Source of the DNA: Gammaproteobacteria bacterium
GTDB taxonomy: Bacteria; Pseudomonadota; Gammaproteobacteria; Pseudomonadales; Halieaceae
DNA length: 64,000 bases
Assembly: GCA_009937065.1 (NCBI GenBank)
Contig: JAACDF010000009.1
Coordinates: forward strand, 1 to 64,000
Direction of reading: 5' to 3'
Position numbers and translations under genes: made by a program. The notes under the pieces are model-generated. The model was given only the letters and a program-made list of their open reading frames with translations. It made no database searches and was not told the origin of the DNA. Positions 3,635 to 61,257 of the stretch are shown one piece after another (position 1 is the stretch's first letter; every line of letters begins with the position of its first letter).

Positions 3635-3858
3635 ATGGCTGTGTTTGATTAGCTATTGATGTATCTACATTGTAGCGTAACTCTGACCTCTCCCTGATGT
3701 CGCTCGACTCCTAAACTGACCTAAAAATATAGGGGCCAACCGATCAAAGGAGCTGGCAGAGAGACGCCCTGTTAATCGTGGCCCTATCAATCTTATTGTG
3801 GTGTTCTCTAAAAATTACATTAGCCTCTCGTATGATGCCTTCAAGCACTAAATAGCCA

Positions 3859-41069: not shown

Positions 41070-41720
41070 TTAACCTGCTCTGAGCTGAAGCAGTGGACTC
41101 AACCAGCGGTGGTGCCAGCGAGTGAATCGAAGCGGCGCTTCGAGGACCGCCAGGCATATACAATCACTACCCGGAAGTGCCGTGGGCGCGTGGATATCGC
41201 CTGCCTCGCGGATGATAAAATCGCCGGCGTGATACGAACCGCTTTCATCACTAAAGCCGCCCTGTAGAACCAATGTCATTTCGGTCCCTGAGTGGTTATG
41301 TTGAGGAATACGACCGCCTTCCGCTATGTGGTAAAGCGAGAACTCCGCCGCACCCTCAATCTCACCCAAGTCGGCGATCCGCAGTGATCGGGTGACTTTT
41401 TTCCAATCAAGCTCATCAAGGTTTCCCTTGCGAATCTGCTTCACGGTCCATGACATCGTGGAGGCGTTGGCATCGTTTGCAGCGTGGACTTCTTGTACTT
41501 CGTCAAGGCGAGCAAGAACGTTATCAAATACAGAGGGATTGATATCGATCGGCTGGGCATCTTCAAACATCGTGGCACCCAGGCTTTCTAATTGTGCAAG
41601 CCTTTGACGACACTCGGAGCAAAACTGAAGGTGAGTAGAAACAACCACACTCTGTGCCGCTGGCAACGAGCTAGCTGCAAACTCTAAAAGAGTATTTGTA
41701 TCCGGATGATATTTAACCAT
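41070..41720 (-). CDS. chrR: ChrR-type anti-sigma factor (ZAS domain plus cupin domain)
   Basis: H-x3-C-x2-C zinc motif (STHLQFCSECRQRL) and cupin motif IPQHNHSGTEMTLVLQGGFSDESGSYHAGDFI. Confidence 0.9.
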   Translation of the reverse strand: MVKYHPDTNTLLEFAASSLPAAQSVVVSTHLQFCSECRQRLAQLESLGATMFEDAQPIDINPSVFDNVLARLDEVQEVHAANDANASTMSWTVKQIRKGNLDELDWKKVTRSLRIADLGEIEGAAEFSLYHIAEGGRIPQHNHSGTEMTLVLQGGFSDESGSYHAGDFIIREAGDIHAPTALPGSDCICLAVLEAPLRFTRWHHRWLSPLLQLRAG

Positions 41721-41862: not shown

Positions 41863-42492
41863 TCACTCCTCCGAACCCACATCCATAAATACCTGTAATT
41901 TCTGAATAGCCAAGCGCACACGAGATTTCACAGTACCAAGTGGCAGACCCAATTCGGCTGCCGTCTCGGAATGTGACTTACCTTCCATGTAGACCTTCGC
42001 AAGTATCTGCGCCTGATCCTGCGGCAAATCGCTCATGAGCTCTCGAACACGTACCGCACCGCGCGATGCATGAAGCGCCATTGTTGGCTCGGCACCCTCG
42101 AGCTCAAAACCAACATCCTCAGCCTCAAGCTGTGTGTCAAACTTCTGTAGACGCCGGAACATATCGGTCCGACAATTTCTCGCAATGGTGTATACCCAAG
42201 TGCTGGCCGCTGCCTTTTCCGGATTGAATCCCGCTGCCTTTTGCCACACCTTGAGCATCACCTCTTGCACGAGCTCGTCGGCATGCGCTGCTGATAGCGA
42301 AGAACCGGAAAGTGCAAACGCTTTAATCAGAGGAGCAAAGTGCGAAAAAAACTTGCCGAATGCGGCTCGATCCCGATGTTCGGCGATTCGCACAACGCAT
42401 TGGCTCCACTCATCCGTTCGACGCCCCTGGGGAACCGACCAAGCAGAGGTCGCGGGTTGTCCGCGTGCGCCTTCTCCCTGCTTGTCCACCAT
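41863..42492 (-). CDS. rpoE: ECF RNA polymerase sigma factor (RpoE/ECF11-like partner of ChrR)
   Basis: Sigma70 region 2 (ADELVQEVMLKVWQKAAGFNPEKAAASTWVYTIARNCRTDMFRR) and region 4 (ILAKVYMEGKSHSETAAELGLPLGTVKSRVRLAIQKL). Confidence 0.9.
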   Translation of the reverse strand: MVDKQGEGARGQPATSAWSVPQGRRTDEWSQCVVRIAEHRDRAAFGKFFSHFAPLIKAFALSGSSLSAAHADELVQEVMLKVWQKAAGFNPEKAAASTWVYTIARNCRTDMFRRLQKFDTQLEAEDVGFELEGAEPTMALHASRGAVRVRELMSDLPQDQAQILAKVYMEGKSHSETAAELGLPLGTVKSRVRLAIQKLQVFMDVGSEE

Positions 42493-42554
42493 CTAGCACT
42501 CTCCTTTGAGTGATTCTCTCCACACAATACACAAATCTAATAAACTTGACACTA

Positions 42555-42582
42555 CAATGTGTATATTAAATCTTACATATTG
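42555..42582. promoter_or_regulatory. Inverted repeat CAATGTGTA-N10-TACATATTG in the rpoE / FAD-oxidoreductase divergent region
   Basis: 9-bp arms with one mismatch, read directly from the sequence. Confidence 0.5.
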
Positions 42583-42604
42583 ATAATTATTACGGTAATT
42601 ATCA
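42581..42604. promoter_or_regulatory. Perfect inverted repeat TGATAATTA-ttacgg-TAATTATCA
   Basis: 9-bp perfect arms, 6-nt spacer, 36 bp before the ATG of the gene at 42640. Confidence 0.6.
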
Positions 42605-42639
42605 GGAGTGAGGTATTGACGTAGTTTTGAGGTAAAACA

Positions 42640-43902
42640 ATGACCACAGCCATTATTGGCACAGGAATTTCAGGTCTTGGGTGTGCGTACCGACTGGCGC
42701 GAGCAGGTGAGCCCGTTGTTGTCTTTGAGGCTGCAAAGAGCGTCGGCGGTCATACCGCGACAAAGCAGGTATCGGTTGCAAGTGGCGACTATGCCATCGA
42801 TACCGGATTCATCGTTTACAACGACTGGACATACCCCGAGTTTATTTCACTCATGGACGAACTCGGCGTCACCAATCAGCCAACCTCGATGGGATTTTCA
42901 GTGTCTGATGACGCCACGGGGCTCGAGTACGCTGGGAATAATCTGAACACCTTGTTTGCCCAGCGTCGCAATCTGCTTTCGCCAAAATTTGTTGGGATGG
43001 TGAGAGAAATCCTTCGATTCAACAAAGTTGCGGTGGAAGACTTGGAAGCGGGGAGGCTTAGCAGTGGTGAAACGCTTGAGGAATACCTCCAACGGCATGG
43101 CTTCAACGAGTTTTTCCGACGCAATTACCTCATCAGTATGGCATCCGCCATTTGGTCTGCAAACTTCGAGGAAAGTCTTAACTTCCCTGCGGAATTTTTT
43201 GTTCGATTTTTCAAAAATCACGGTCTTTTACAGGTCAAGAACCGACCGCAATGGCGTGTGCTACGCGGCGGTAGTCAAAGTTACTTAGCGCCTATCTCTG
43301 CGCCTTTTGAGGAAAGTATCCGCACCAACTGTGAAGTTGCTGCGGTTGTCCGTGAAGTAAATCAATCACCCAAGTTACGCACATGTCACGGAGAAGAGTT
43401 GGTGTTTGACGACATCGTAATTGCGACGCACGCCGACCAAGCAATGGCCATGCTGAGTGATATTGATGACACAGAGTCACGTGTGCTGAGCGAGCTTCCC
43501 TACTCTGAAAACGCGGTAGTGCTGCATACCGATACCCGTCTTCTTCCCAAGAAAAAGCTCGCCTGGTCGAGCTGGAACTATCGGCTTCGCGAGTCGACCA
43601 GCCAAGCGACTCTAACCTATAACATGAATATTCTTCAGGGTATTAACTCACCTGAAACCTTTTGCGTGACCCTAAATGATACCAACGCAATCGACCCTTC
43701 AACGATCCTAGGGGAATACCGATACGCACATCCTCAATTCACAATAAAAGGTATTGCATCTCAGCAACGCTGGATTGATATCAATGGCCCCAGAAATACT
43801 TGGTTCTGCGGCGCCTACTGGCGAAACGGGTTTCACGAGGACGGTCTGTTCAGCGGCAACCGTGTCGCCAACGCCATTATCAAAAAACGAGGCCTGCAGT
43901 GA
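42640..43902 (+). CDS. FAD/NAD(P)-binding oxidoreductase (amine-oxidase-like), ChrR/RpoE-associated
   Basis: Rossmann motif AIIGTGISGLGCAYRLARAGEPVVVFEAAKSVGGHTAT; next to DUF1365 and cfa. Confidence 0.9.
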   Translation: MTTAIIGTGISGLGCAYRLARAGEPVVVFEAAKSVGGHTATKQVSVASGDYAIDTGFIVYNDWTYPEFISLMDELGVTNQPTSMGFSVSDDATGLEYAGNNLNTLFAQRRNLLSPKFVGMVREILRFNKVAVEDLEAGRLSSGETLEEYLQRHGFNEFFRRNYLISMASAIWSANFEESLNFPAEFFVRFFKNHGLLQVKNRPQWRVLRGGSQSYLAPISAPFEESIRTNCEVAAVVREVNQSPKLRTCHGEELVFDDIVIATHADQAMAMLSDIDDTESRVLSELPYSENAVVLHTDTRLLPKKKLAWSSWNYRLRESTSQATLTYNMNILQGINSPETFCVTLNDTNAIDPSTILGEYRYAHPQFTIKGIASQQRWIDINGPRNTWFCGAYWRNGFHEDGLFSGNRVANAIIKKRGLQ

Positions 43903-44651
43903 ACTCCGCCTTTTATGTAGGTAGGCTGGCTCACGCGCGGATGACCCCCAAACAGCATCGATTCAGTTATCGTGTATTCATGCCCTTCGTTGATGTGGAT
44001 AGCATCAGCGATATTACGCGTCGAGCAACGGGTTGGGGTTCACGAGGTTTGGCTCCAGCGCGCTTTGTTCGCAGCGACTTCTTGGGTGACGAGCGTCTAT
44101 CTGTCGCAGAGGCCGTCAAACAGCGCATCTTTGAAGAGACAGAGCAGCACTTCGAGGGGCAGATTTTTCTATTGGCCAACTGGCGATATTTTGGACTCCA
44201 AAACAACCCTATCGCTTGTTATTTCTGTAAAGGAAAAACCAGTCAGAGGCTCGAATTCATCATCGCCGAAGTCACTAATACGCCCTGGGGAGAACGACAC
44301 AGCTACGTGCTCCCTGTGAATCACGAAGAGGCACTGTTCCAAACCGAGTTTAAAAAAGAACTCCACGTATCCCCATTTCACGGTATGCAACAACGGTACC
44401 GTTGGTCATCTACGGTTCCAGATGAATCGCTGGCCATCAAGCTAACGAATCTAGAGGGTGGGGAGCGCGTATTTCATGCATCGCTCACACTCACGAGACT
44501 CCCGGTCACTCGCTTAACCGGGCTCTCCCTGCTGGCGCGCTTTCCGTTTGAGACGGCGAAGGTCACAGCAGGCATTTACTGGCAGGCACTCGTTTTATTT
44601 CTGCGACGCGTGCCTCTCTTCGCTCACCCAAAGAATAACTCAGATAATTAG
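43899..44651 (+). CDS. DUF1365 domain-containing protein
   Basis: VGRLAHARMTPKQHRFSYRVFMPFVDVDS; NPIACYFCKGK; VNHEEALFQTEFKKELHVSPFHGMQQRYRW. GTG start at 43899 overlaps the upstream stop. Confidence 0.93.
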   Translation: MNSAFYVGRLAHARMTPKQHRFSYRVFMPFVDVDSISDITRRATGWGSRGLAPARFVRSDFLGDERLSVAEAVKQRIFEETEQHFEGQIFLLANWRYFGLQNNPIACYFCKGKTSQRLEFIIAEVTNTPWGERHSYVLPVNHEEALFQTEFKKELHVSPFHGMQQRYRWSSTVPDESLAIKLTNLEGGERVFHASLTLTRLPVTRLTGLSLLARFPFETAKVTAGIYWQALVLFLRRVPLFAHPKNNSDN

Positions 44652-44664
44652 GTAGGAATGTCTT

Positions 44665-45927
44665 ATGACGAGCCGTCAGGTAGATGTTAAGCGCATTGAA
44701 AAATTACCCTCCGTAAAATCATGGCGCAGTACTGAGCTCACCAAACGACTGGTGCTTAAGCTCTTTAGCGGTCTTCGTCACGGGGAGCTCGTCATCCATG
44801 ACAATGGAGAGACCCATCGTTTCGGAGACGCTGATCTGTCGGTAGCCCCGAGCGCCTCGGTCACCATTCATAAGCCCAGCGCTTATTCGCGTATTCTTAT
44901 GGGCGGAACGATGGGTGCGGCAGAAGCCTACATTGACGGAGATTGGAGTACTGACGAGCTCACGAATGTGACGCGGGTATTCAGCGCTAATATGCCCATT
45001 CTCGAGTCTATGAAAAATAATCAGAACTGGCTCATAAAAGGCGCGCTTAAGCTCGCACACGCAGCGCGAAGAAATTCTCTGACAGGATCTCGAGAAAATA
45101 TTGCGGCGCATTATGACTTAGGCAACGACTTTTTTTCCTTGTTCCTCGACCCTACTCTGATGTACTCATCGGCGGTTTTCCCCGCGAATTGCGACAACCT
45201 AGCCGAGGCCTCACAACACAAGCTTAAGCTCATTTGTGAAGACCTTGAGCTCAAGCCAACCGACCACCTTATCGAAATTGGCACGGGCTGGGGTGGAATG
45301 GCGATCTATGCGGCCGAAAATTATGGCTGTAGGGTCACCACCACAACTATCTCCAGCGAGCAGCTGGAACACGCACGGAGCGAGGTAGAAAAGCGGGGCC
45401 TGCAGGACAAAATCACCCTACTCTTCGAAGATTACCGAGACCTGTCAGGTCAGTTCGACAAGCTGGTATCCATCGAGATGATTGAAGCCGTAGGACACGA
45501 GTACTTCGACACTTATTTCAACTGCGTCAGCAAATTACTCAAGCCCGACGGCAAAGCGCTCATCCAGGCCATCACCATCAATAAGCAACGCTACGATGAA
45601 TACCGTAAGTCAGTAGATTTCATCAAGAGGTATATCTTTCCGGGGGGCTGCCTACCCTCGCTCAATGTCATTAGCGGTGCGCTCACTCGAACAACGGATA
45701 TGCAAATTATCGACCTTAGAGACATAGCCATCGATTACGCGCGCACACTCCAGCACTGGCATGAAGCCTTTATGGCAGAACTGGATGCTGTCAAAGCATT
45801 GGGGTTCGATGAGAAATTTATTCGGATGTGGCGCTTTTATTTAAGCTACTGTGAGGGTGGCTTTCGTGAACGTATTATTGGAACCTATCAAATCACAATG
45901 GCGAAGCCGTATTACCGGCCGACATAA
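44665..45927 (+). CDS. cfa: Cyclopropane-fatty-acyl-phospholipid synthase family methyltransferase
   Basis: NIAAHYDLGNDFFSLFLDPTLMYSSAVF; IEIGTGWGGMAIYAAENYGCRVTTTTIS; VSIEMIEAVGHEYFDTYF; FIKRYIFPGGCLPS. Confidence 0.95.
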   Translation: MTSRQVDVKRIEKLPSVKSWRSTELTKRLVLKLFSGLRHGELVIHDNGETHRFGDADLSVAPSASVTIHKPSAYSRILMGGTMGAAEAYIDGDWSTDELTNVTRVFSANMPILESMKNNQNWLIKGALKLAHAARRNSLTGSRENIAAHYDLGNDFFSLFLDPTLMYSSAVFPANCDNLAEASQHKLKLICEDLELKPTDHLIEIGTGWGGMAIYAAENYGCRVTTTTISSEQLEHARSEVEKRGLQDKITLLFEDYRDLSGQFDKLVSIEMIEAVGHEYFDTYFNCVSKLLKPDGKALIQAITINKQRYDEYRKSVDFIKRYIFPGGCLPSLNVISGALTRTTDMQIIDLRDIAIDYARTLQHWHEAFMAELDAVKALGFDEKFIRMWRFYLSYCEGGFRERIIGTYQITMAKPYYRPT

Positions 45928-59870: not shown

Positions 59871-61257
59871 TTCAAATGAAATTTGGGTAGTTGATGACGA
59901 TAGCTCAATCCGCTGGGTCATCGAAAAAGCGCTGTCTGGAGAGAGCATCTCTTGCAACAGCTTTGAATGCGCTGATGATTTACTGGCGGCACTCAAAACA
60001 GGGACGCCCAAAGCGATCATCAGCGACATCCGAATGCCGGGCATGGATGGCTTGGCTCTGCTCAGAGAGCTGAAATCGACGGTCCCCGATGTTCCGGTGA
60101 TTATTACCACTGCGCACTCGGACCTAGATAGCGCGGTCACCTCCTATGAATCCGGCGCATTCGAATATCTCCCCAAGCCCTTTGATATCGACGAAATGCT
60201 GGAGGTCGCTACGCGCGCACTCGCACACACCAATAAATTACCCGCTAACGGGAAAGCACTGGATAGCGGTGACAAGGAAATCATTGGAAACGCAGCCGCA
60301 ATGCAAGAGGTATTCCGAGCAATTGGACGCCTATCGCAGAGCTCAATCACTGTACTTATTAGCGGACAATCTGGTTCGGGAAAAGAGCTCGTTGCCCGGG
60401 CCTTACATCGCCATAGCCCGAGAGGGAGTGCGCCGTTCATTGCCCTCAACATGGCGGCGGTTCCAAAAGACTTGATGGAATCCGAACTTTTTGGGCATGA
60501 GAAAGGTTCATTCACGGGCGCATCGGGAAAACGTGAAGGTCGCTTTGAACAGGCCAGCGGAGGCACCCTATTTCTAGACGAAATCGGCGACATGCCGCAC
60601 GACACACAGACCCGACTACTGAGAGTTCTTGCCGAGGGGGAGTTTTATCGGGTCGGTGGTGCCAGTGCCATCAAAACGGATGTCCGTGTGATTGCAGCAA
60701 CGCATCAAGATTTGCGTGAACTCGTTGCACGAGGCTTATTCAGAGAAGATCTCTATCACCGACTGAATGTGATCGGTATTAACGTGCCCAGGCTGTCAGA
60801 TCGAAGTGAGGACATTCCTCTGCTACTCAATCATTTCTTGAGCAAAGCAGCCGATGAGTTGGGGGTCCCAACGAAAGAGGTATCGACGCAGGTACGCAAC
60901 TATCTCAGCGCTCTTGACTGGCCCGGTAACGTCCGACAACTCGAGAATACCTGCCGTTGGCTAACGGTGATGGCAGCCGGCAATACAATCCTTATGAACG
61001 ATCTGCCACCAGAACTCACAGTGAATGCTGACACCGAGGGCAAGGGATCTGGCTCGTGGGAAAAGCAACTATCTGACTGGGTAAGAGCCAAACTACTGGC
61101 TGGTGAAACCAATGTGCTAAAGCAGGCTATGCCACAGATAGAGTCCATCATGATGAACGCTGCGCTGGAACACACTGCGGGTAGAAAAGCGGAGGCCGCT
61201 GAGCTTTTGGGATGGGGCCGAAACACCCTAACCCGCAAACTCAGCCAGCAACTCTAA
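59863..61257 (+). CDS. glnG: Nitrogen regulation response regulator NtrC
   Basis: Receiver WVVDDDSSIRWVIEKAL; AAA+ GQSGSGKELVARALHRHSPR, GAFTGA-type GSFTGA; HTH HTAGRKAEAAELLGWGRNTLTRKL. Start set at 59863. Confidence 0.97.
   Translation: MTDSNEIWVVDDDSSIRWVIEKALSGESISCNSFECADDLLAALKTGTPKAIISDIRMPGMDGLALLRELKSTVPDVPVIITTAHSDLDSAVTSYESGAFEYLPKPFDIDEMLEVATRALAHTNKLPANGKALDSGDKEIIGNAAAMQEVFRAIGRLSQSSITVLISGQSGSGKELVARALHRHSPRGSAPFIALNMAAVPKDLMESELFGHEKGSFTGASGKREGRFEQASGGTLFLDEIGDMPHDTQTRLLRVLAEGEFYRVGGASAIKTDVRVIAATHQDLRELVARGLFREDLYHRLNVIGINVPRLSDRSEDIPLLLNHFLSKAADELGVPTKEVSTQVRNYLSALDWPGNVRQLENTCRWLTVMAAGNTILMNDLPPELTVNADTEGKGSGSWEKQLSDWVRAKLLAGETNVLKQAMPQIESIMMNAALEHTAGRKAEAAELLGWGRNTLTRKLSQQL

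Follow-up and report, generated by a model that had tools for sequence, protein, structure and literature searches.

A predicted PpsR operator between rpoE-chrR and a lipid operon in a clade of Luminiphilus, at a position that in relatives holds a promoter for the singlet-oxygen sigma factor

It is an open question how pigment synthesis is kept in balance with singlet oxygen in aerobic anoxygenic phototrophs, and the sigma-E/ChrR and PpsR systems are usually treated as separate circuits. The 64,000-nt stretch of DNA analysed here (the window) raises the question which regulator acts between rpoE-chrR and a divergent lipid operon, where a sequence-only reading had described two adjacent inverted repeats. 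The flanking genes are as follows.

41070..41720, minus strand: chrR, ChrR-family anti-sigma factor (TIGR02451, 177.5 bits, cut-off 124.5)
41863..42492, minus strand: rpoE, ECF11-type sigma factor
42640..43902, plus strand: FAD-dependent amine-oxidase-type protein in UfaD-like position
43899..44651, plus strand: DUF1365 protein (UfaO family), GTG start inferred
44665..45927, plus strand: CMAS/Cfa-type methyltransferase (UfaM/Cfa-like)

UfaO of the furan fatty-acid pathway contains DUF1365 (PMC7380195). By domain the lipid operon matches this pathway, and a furan fatty acid may be its product here. In known systems, rpoE-chrR and the furan fatty-acid genes are core sigma-E/ChrR targets (PMC6852236).

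Both repeats are present in the 147-bp intergenic region (42493-42639), at the positions where they had been placed. The first is imperfect, with 8/9 paired positions in its arms, and the second is perfect (9/9).

42555..42582: dyad A as first read, CAATGTGTA-N10-TACATATTG, arms 42555-42563 and 42574-42582
42581..42604: dyad B, TGATAATTA-N6-TAATTATCA, arms 42581-42589 and 42596-42604

For footprinting, the rpoE/FAD intergenic regions of the genus Luminiphilus (OM60/NOR5), to which named relatives (e.g. HTCC2080 and L. syltensis NOR5-1B) assign the window, and of other Halieaceae were compared, the genomes being mostly metagenome-derived drafts. One of these, G014, carries a second rpoE at a contig end (G014:C29:46361-46984, L193; 84% identical), which is either a duplicate or contamination (4%). 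The window and 15 relatives (n=16) form the clade that carries the predicted operator in dyad A; it is monophyletic with an SH-aLRT of 100, and one change suffices to explain the distribution. Within this clade three features are conserved: a block near rpoE (AGAATACACA in the relatives), TTGACA and TGT-N12-ACA. The latter two are retained in all 16 members, separated by 8 bp (7 bp in L011), with mean identities of 1.0 for TTGACA and 0.91 for TGT-N12-ACA, as compared to 0.58 for dyad B and 0.58-0.63 for the adjacent leader. The outer bases of dyad A (42555-42557 and 42580-42582) are not conserved among the 16 genomes, and the conserved unit around it is TTGACA-N8-TGT-N12-ACA at 42546-42577. 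Hence, the footprint in close relatives confirmed the core of dyad A together with TTGACA, but not dyad B. The elements of the region are listed below.

42524..42533, minus strand: conserved block within the promoter region of rpoE, reading TGTGTATTCT in relatives and TGTGTATTGT in the window
42534..42551: upper PpsR palindrome AATCTAATAAACTTGACA, degenerate through loss of its left half; register taken from bchC (TGT-N12-ACA-N8-TGT-N12-ACA)
42546..42551, plus strand: TTGACA, predicted -35 of the FAD/DUF1365/cfa operon promoter and right half of the upper, degenerate PpsR site; unchanged in 16/16
42560..42577: predicted PpsR/CrtJ operator TGTATATTAAATCTTACA (TGT-N12-ACA), an exact palindrome forming the "lower" site over the predicted -10; rank 1 with the bchC matrix in the 64-kb window; 16/16 in the clade
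42569..42574, plus strand: predicted -10, AATCTT, weak (3/6), 17 bp after TTGACA; placed by analogy with the bchC footprint of R. capsulatus

The block at 42524-42533 has a mean identity of 0.99 across the 16 genomes and probably represents the -10 region of rpoE; its sequence GTGTATNCT is also found in other Luminiphilus. Of note, GTGTATNCT directed towards rpoE hardly varies across Luminiphilus, although the sigma-E autopromoter that other Halieaceae have is no longer present.

PpsR is the repressor of the light-harvesting genes of purple bacteria. TGT-N12-ACA is the published binding site of PpsR/CrtJ (PMC5362033, PMC2654016, PMC4452267), and the genomic distribution of the motif points to the same protein. 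TGTRTA-N10-TACAYA has two matches in the window's own genome, dyad A and a site in the photosynthesis gene cluster, immediately upstream of bchC. Likewise, pattern searches with TGACA-N8-TGT-N12-ACA returned exactly two matches in 2.76 Mb, the intergenic region and bchC, a count that is a lower bound as the genome is a draft of 92% completeness. Across 57 Luminiphilus genomes, TTGACA-N8-TGT-N12-ACA matched 64 times. Assigned by hand from their listed coordinates, 43 of these matches are at bchC, 15 in the rpoE/FAD intergenic region (together 58/64) and 6 elsewhere, while reversed-pattern controls yielded 5 matches in total in the same 57 genomes. When a matrix was built from bchC operators only, the site at 42560 ranked first in the 64-kb window with 20.8 bits versus 14.5 for the next; the matrix also selects the bchC and bchF-ppsR intergenic regions. 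Two more single PpsR-like palindromes, with lower matrix scores, are present in the window at 3802-3819 and 60351-60368 (TGTTCTCTAAAAATTACA and TGTACTTATTAGCGGACA). The cognate gene is present: ppsR of the same genome (G000:C180) scores 409 bits against TIGR02040 (cut-off 275), and 49 of the 57 Luminiphilus genomes have a ppsR above cut-off.

The upstream regions of bchC carry the tandem TGT-N12-ACA-N8-TGT-N12-ACA in nearly all genomes of the genus that were read. At the locus studied here, TTGACA has the same layout relative to TGT-N12-ACA as at bchC; of the expected tandem of two palindromes 7-9 bp apart, it retains the spacing and, as inner half-site, TTGACA, and the left TGT of the upper palindrome is missing. 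In the R. capsulatus bchC footprint the lower palindrome covers -21 to -4 and the upper one -47 to -30 (PMC5362033). Transferring this register predicts the +1 of the lipid operon at 42581, which is the first base of dyad B. A consensus scan of the region detected no sigma-70 promoter despite the perfect -35, a scan for terminators found none, and there is no Rfam match within 41-46 kb.

The conservation could also reflect promoter elements only, i.e. the -35 TTGACA and an AT-rich -10, the dyad symmetry being incidental. The invariant TTGACA could indeed act alone as a -35, and the operator overlies the predicted -10. However, TGT and ACA stay 12 bp apart in 16/16 genomes despite variation in the N8 and in part of the N12, and in L012, L013 and L176 the right arm is a symmetric TACACATT, which speaks against incidental symmetry. 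Moreover, the -10 itself is poor and genome-wide the motif is common only to bchC. We consider this explanation quite improbable. From sequence, spacing and distribution, we put the probability of dyad A being an operator for PpsR (CrtJ) at roughly 85%. The proposal that at least one regulator besides RpoE acts here is borne out to the extent that dyad A has the sequence, the spacing and the genome-wide distribution of a PpsR operator.

Dyad B behaves differently. When the 147-bp region was shuffled 300 times with dinucleotides preserved, 0.7% of the shuffles contained a perfect dyad of 9 bp with a loop of up to 20 nt, so in this one sequence dyad B exceeds the expectation from composition. 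The 15 relatives keep 1-7 of its 9 pairs, and it is thus probably private to the window's own genome. Dyad B could be a functional second operator or a recent leader stem-loop, since, having perfect 9+9 arms, it would begin at the predicted +1 and occupy nt 1-24 of the mRNA leader. Consistent with the latter, the 40-nt leader (42581-42620) of the seven closest genomes tends to fold better than its shuffles (z -1.25 to -3.29), although the sequences differ. These data give faint indications of a possible 5' stem-loop in the leader of the FAD operon. However, the pairs of dyad B are not kept in any of the 15 relatives, the z-scores of the other nine genomes range from -1.5 to +0.8, and dyad B has no Rfam match. 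A function of dyad B in either role appears unlikely to us; rather than a second conserved operator, it would be at most a 5'-end mRNA hairpin of its own strain. As dyad B is not conserved, the idea of separate regulators for the two dyads found no support.

RpoE had been assumed to act on the divergent rpoE promoter region. For the sigma-E (ECF11) promoter we used the consensus TGATC-N16-18-CGTA, as reported for Vibrio and Shewanella (PMC5241685, PMC4336711). TGATC-N16-18-CGTAW is absent from both strands of the 16 intergenic regions of the clade, the best matches (6-8/10) being at the level of shuffled sequences, and the assumption did not hold: no sigma-E promoter is left in either direction. 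A by-eye search of the dyad B region for a decayed remnant gave nothing convincing. A sigma-E promoter directed towards the FAD oxidase/DUF1365/cfa operon is present in all 32 other Luminiphilus loci, where this is its sole direction; Halieaceae outside the genus (e.g. Chromatocurvus, Pseudohaliea, Haliea) carry sigma-E promoters in both directions in 29 of 36 tree loci.

The clade does possess a sigma-E promoter at ppsR. All 16 members in which the region upstream of ppsR was read have TGATC-N17-CGTA with 9-10/10 matches, adjoining the PpsR palindrome in the bchF-ppsR intergenic region.

G000:C180:1970-1996, minus strand: sigma-E promoter TGATC-N17-CGTAW upstream of ppsR (L093/L302; ppsR CDS 468-1844)

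In other Luminiphilus, the region upstream of ppsR mostly reaches 6-8/10 against the consensus. The exceptions are G005, with a match at a different place, G059, G064 and G069, with a 16-bp spacer and farther upstream, and G035, with 9/10 near the gene. A gene for a MerR-type protein retains its sigma-E promoter in most of the clade, so the specificity of RpoE seems unchanged.

This MerR-type protein (333 aa; G000:C122 in the window's genome) bears on the speculation that a LitR/CarH-like MerR regulator binds dyad A. It is found in 48 of 57 genus genomes at E<=1e-20, and the blue-light response of V. cholerae uses a MerR protein together with ChrR (PMC5241685). However, the class II LitR consensus TRTACA-N12-TGTAYA (PMC9758184) has no match in 42493-42639 when up to 2 mismatches are allowed, the merR promoter bears other conserved repeats (TGTCCA/TGAACA/TGGACA), merR also occurs in Luminiphilus clades without dyad A, and the motif of dyad A recurs at bchC, a classical PpsR target. 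In addition, Pfam identified only the MerR HTH and no B12 domain in the 333-aa protein. With the consensus absent, no B12 domain detectable in the LitR-like protein and different repeats in its own promoter, we regard a LitR/CarH-like regulator at dyad A as highly improbable. The MerR/LitR-like gene (L053:1557-2558, minus strand, with its upstream region; L143-L172) lies beside a sigma-70-family gene and a photolyase. Upstream of the MerR gene are the conserved sigma-E promoter and the TGTCCA/TGAACA/TGGACA boxes, which may be its own operator. A B12-dependent antirepressor (AerR/PpaA) was considered as light input to PpsR. PF02310, which a diverged AerR could escape, yielded no candidate in the window's genome: its matches are a 231-aa corrinoid protein, adjoining what by eye is probably a trimethylamine methyltransferase, and a frame of 725 aa that is probably methylmalonyl-CoA mutase.

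The resemblance of dyad A to the bchC operators, its exclusivity, its conservation and the clade-specific replacement of the sigma-E promoter were computed directly; we infer, in addition, PpsR binding, repression, an effect on rpoE and the function of the lipid operon. PpsR would bind TGT-N12-ACA at 42560-42577, aided by the degenerate half-site over the -35 (TTGACA, 42546-42551), and would block RNA polymerase at the FAD oxidase/DUF1365/cfa promoter as it does at bchC. The divergent rpoE-chrR promoter may be a second PpsR target, because it abuts the operator. The lipid operon would then be co-expressed with the bacteriochlorophyll genes and no longer be induced by singlet oxygen. Several points speak against a PpsR operator. 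The upper palindrome of the tandem is half lost, while cooperative binding to two sites is usual for PpsR/CrtJ; the -10 predicted here (AATCTT) is weak; and the target is without precedent, as the PpsR ChIP-seq targets of R. sphaeroides include neither rpoE-chrR nor the furan fatty-acid operon (PMC4344238). A literature search, which covered few subscription papers, turned up no previous account of rpoE-chrR having a PpsR site or ppsR a sigma-E promoter.

Since the PpsR-like site stands where relatives carry a promoter for the singlet-oxygen sigma factor, this lineage seems to have rewired the coupling of pigment synthesis to protection from light damage. On the explanation we favour, the lipid operon would have left the core sigma-E/ChrR regulon and been placed under PpsR, and ppsR in turn under sigma-E. 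As ppsR has a sigma-E promoter in the clade, activating sigma-E would be expected to increase PpsR and to reduce pigment synthesis. Our confidence is evenly divided on the broader proposal of a reciprocal exchange within one genus, in which the lipid-protection operon passed from the sigma-E to the PpsR regulon and ppsR gained a sigma-E promoter, such that singlet oxygen would shut off pigment synthesis via sigma-E and PpsR, with membrane protection built ahead together with the photosystem rather than as a reaction to damage. Should PpsR also repress rpoE, the sigma-E/PpsR pair would constitute a negative feedback loop. In marine Luminiphilus, a link between sigma-E/ChrR and PpsR can be read from one intergenic region and the ppsR promoter, and sister clades with the ancestral wiring provide natural controls.

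Among known systems, the class II LitR operators of Pseudomonas (PMC9758184) resemble dyad A in being dyads with TGTA/TACA elements at a light-related promoter, but their half-sites and spacing differ (TRTACA-N12-TGTAYA). With R. capsulatus bchC and its two CrtJ palindromes (PMC5362033) the arrangement shares TGT-N12-ACA over the -10 and a second site over the -35 at fixed spacing; it departs from bchC in the degeneracy of its upper palindrome and in controlling genes that do not belong to photosynthesis. Similar sites are known from Congregibacter litoralis KT71 of the same OM60/NOR5 group, where the PpsR consensus is TGTcaN8tgACA, mostly in tandem 7-8 nt apart and over putative sigma-70 promoters (PMC2654016); that study was confined to the photosynthesis gene cluster and reported no site at rpoE-chrR or lipid genes. 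By domain, the locus matches the sigma-E/ChrR core regulon (PMC6852236, PMC7380195), comprising an ECF11 sigma factor, ChrR, a DUF1365 protein of the UfaO family, a CMAS-type methyltransferase and an FAD protein. Unlike in that regulon, rpoE and the lipid operon of the clade lack TGATC-N16-18-CGTA and have a PpsR-type site instead.
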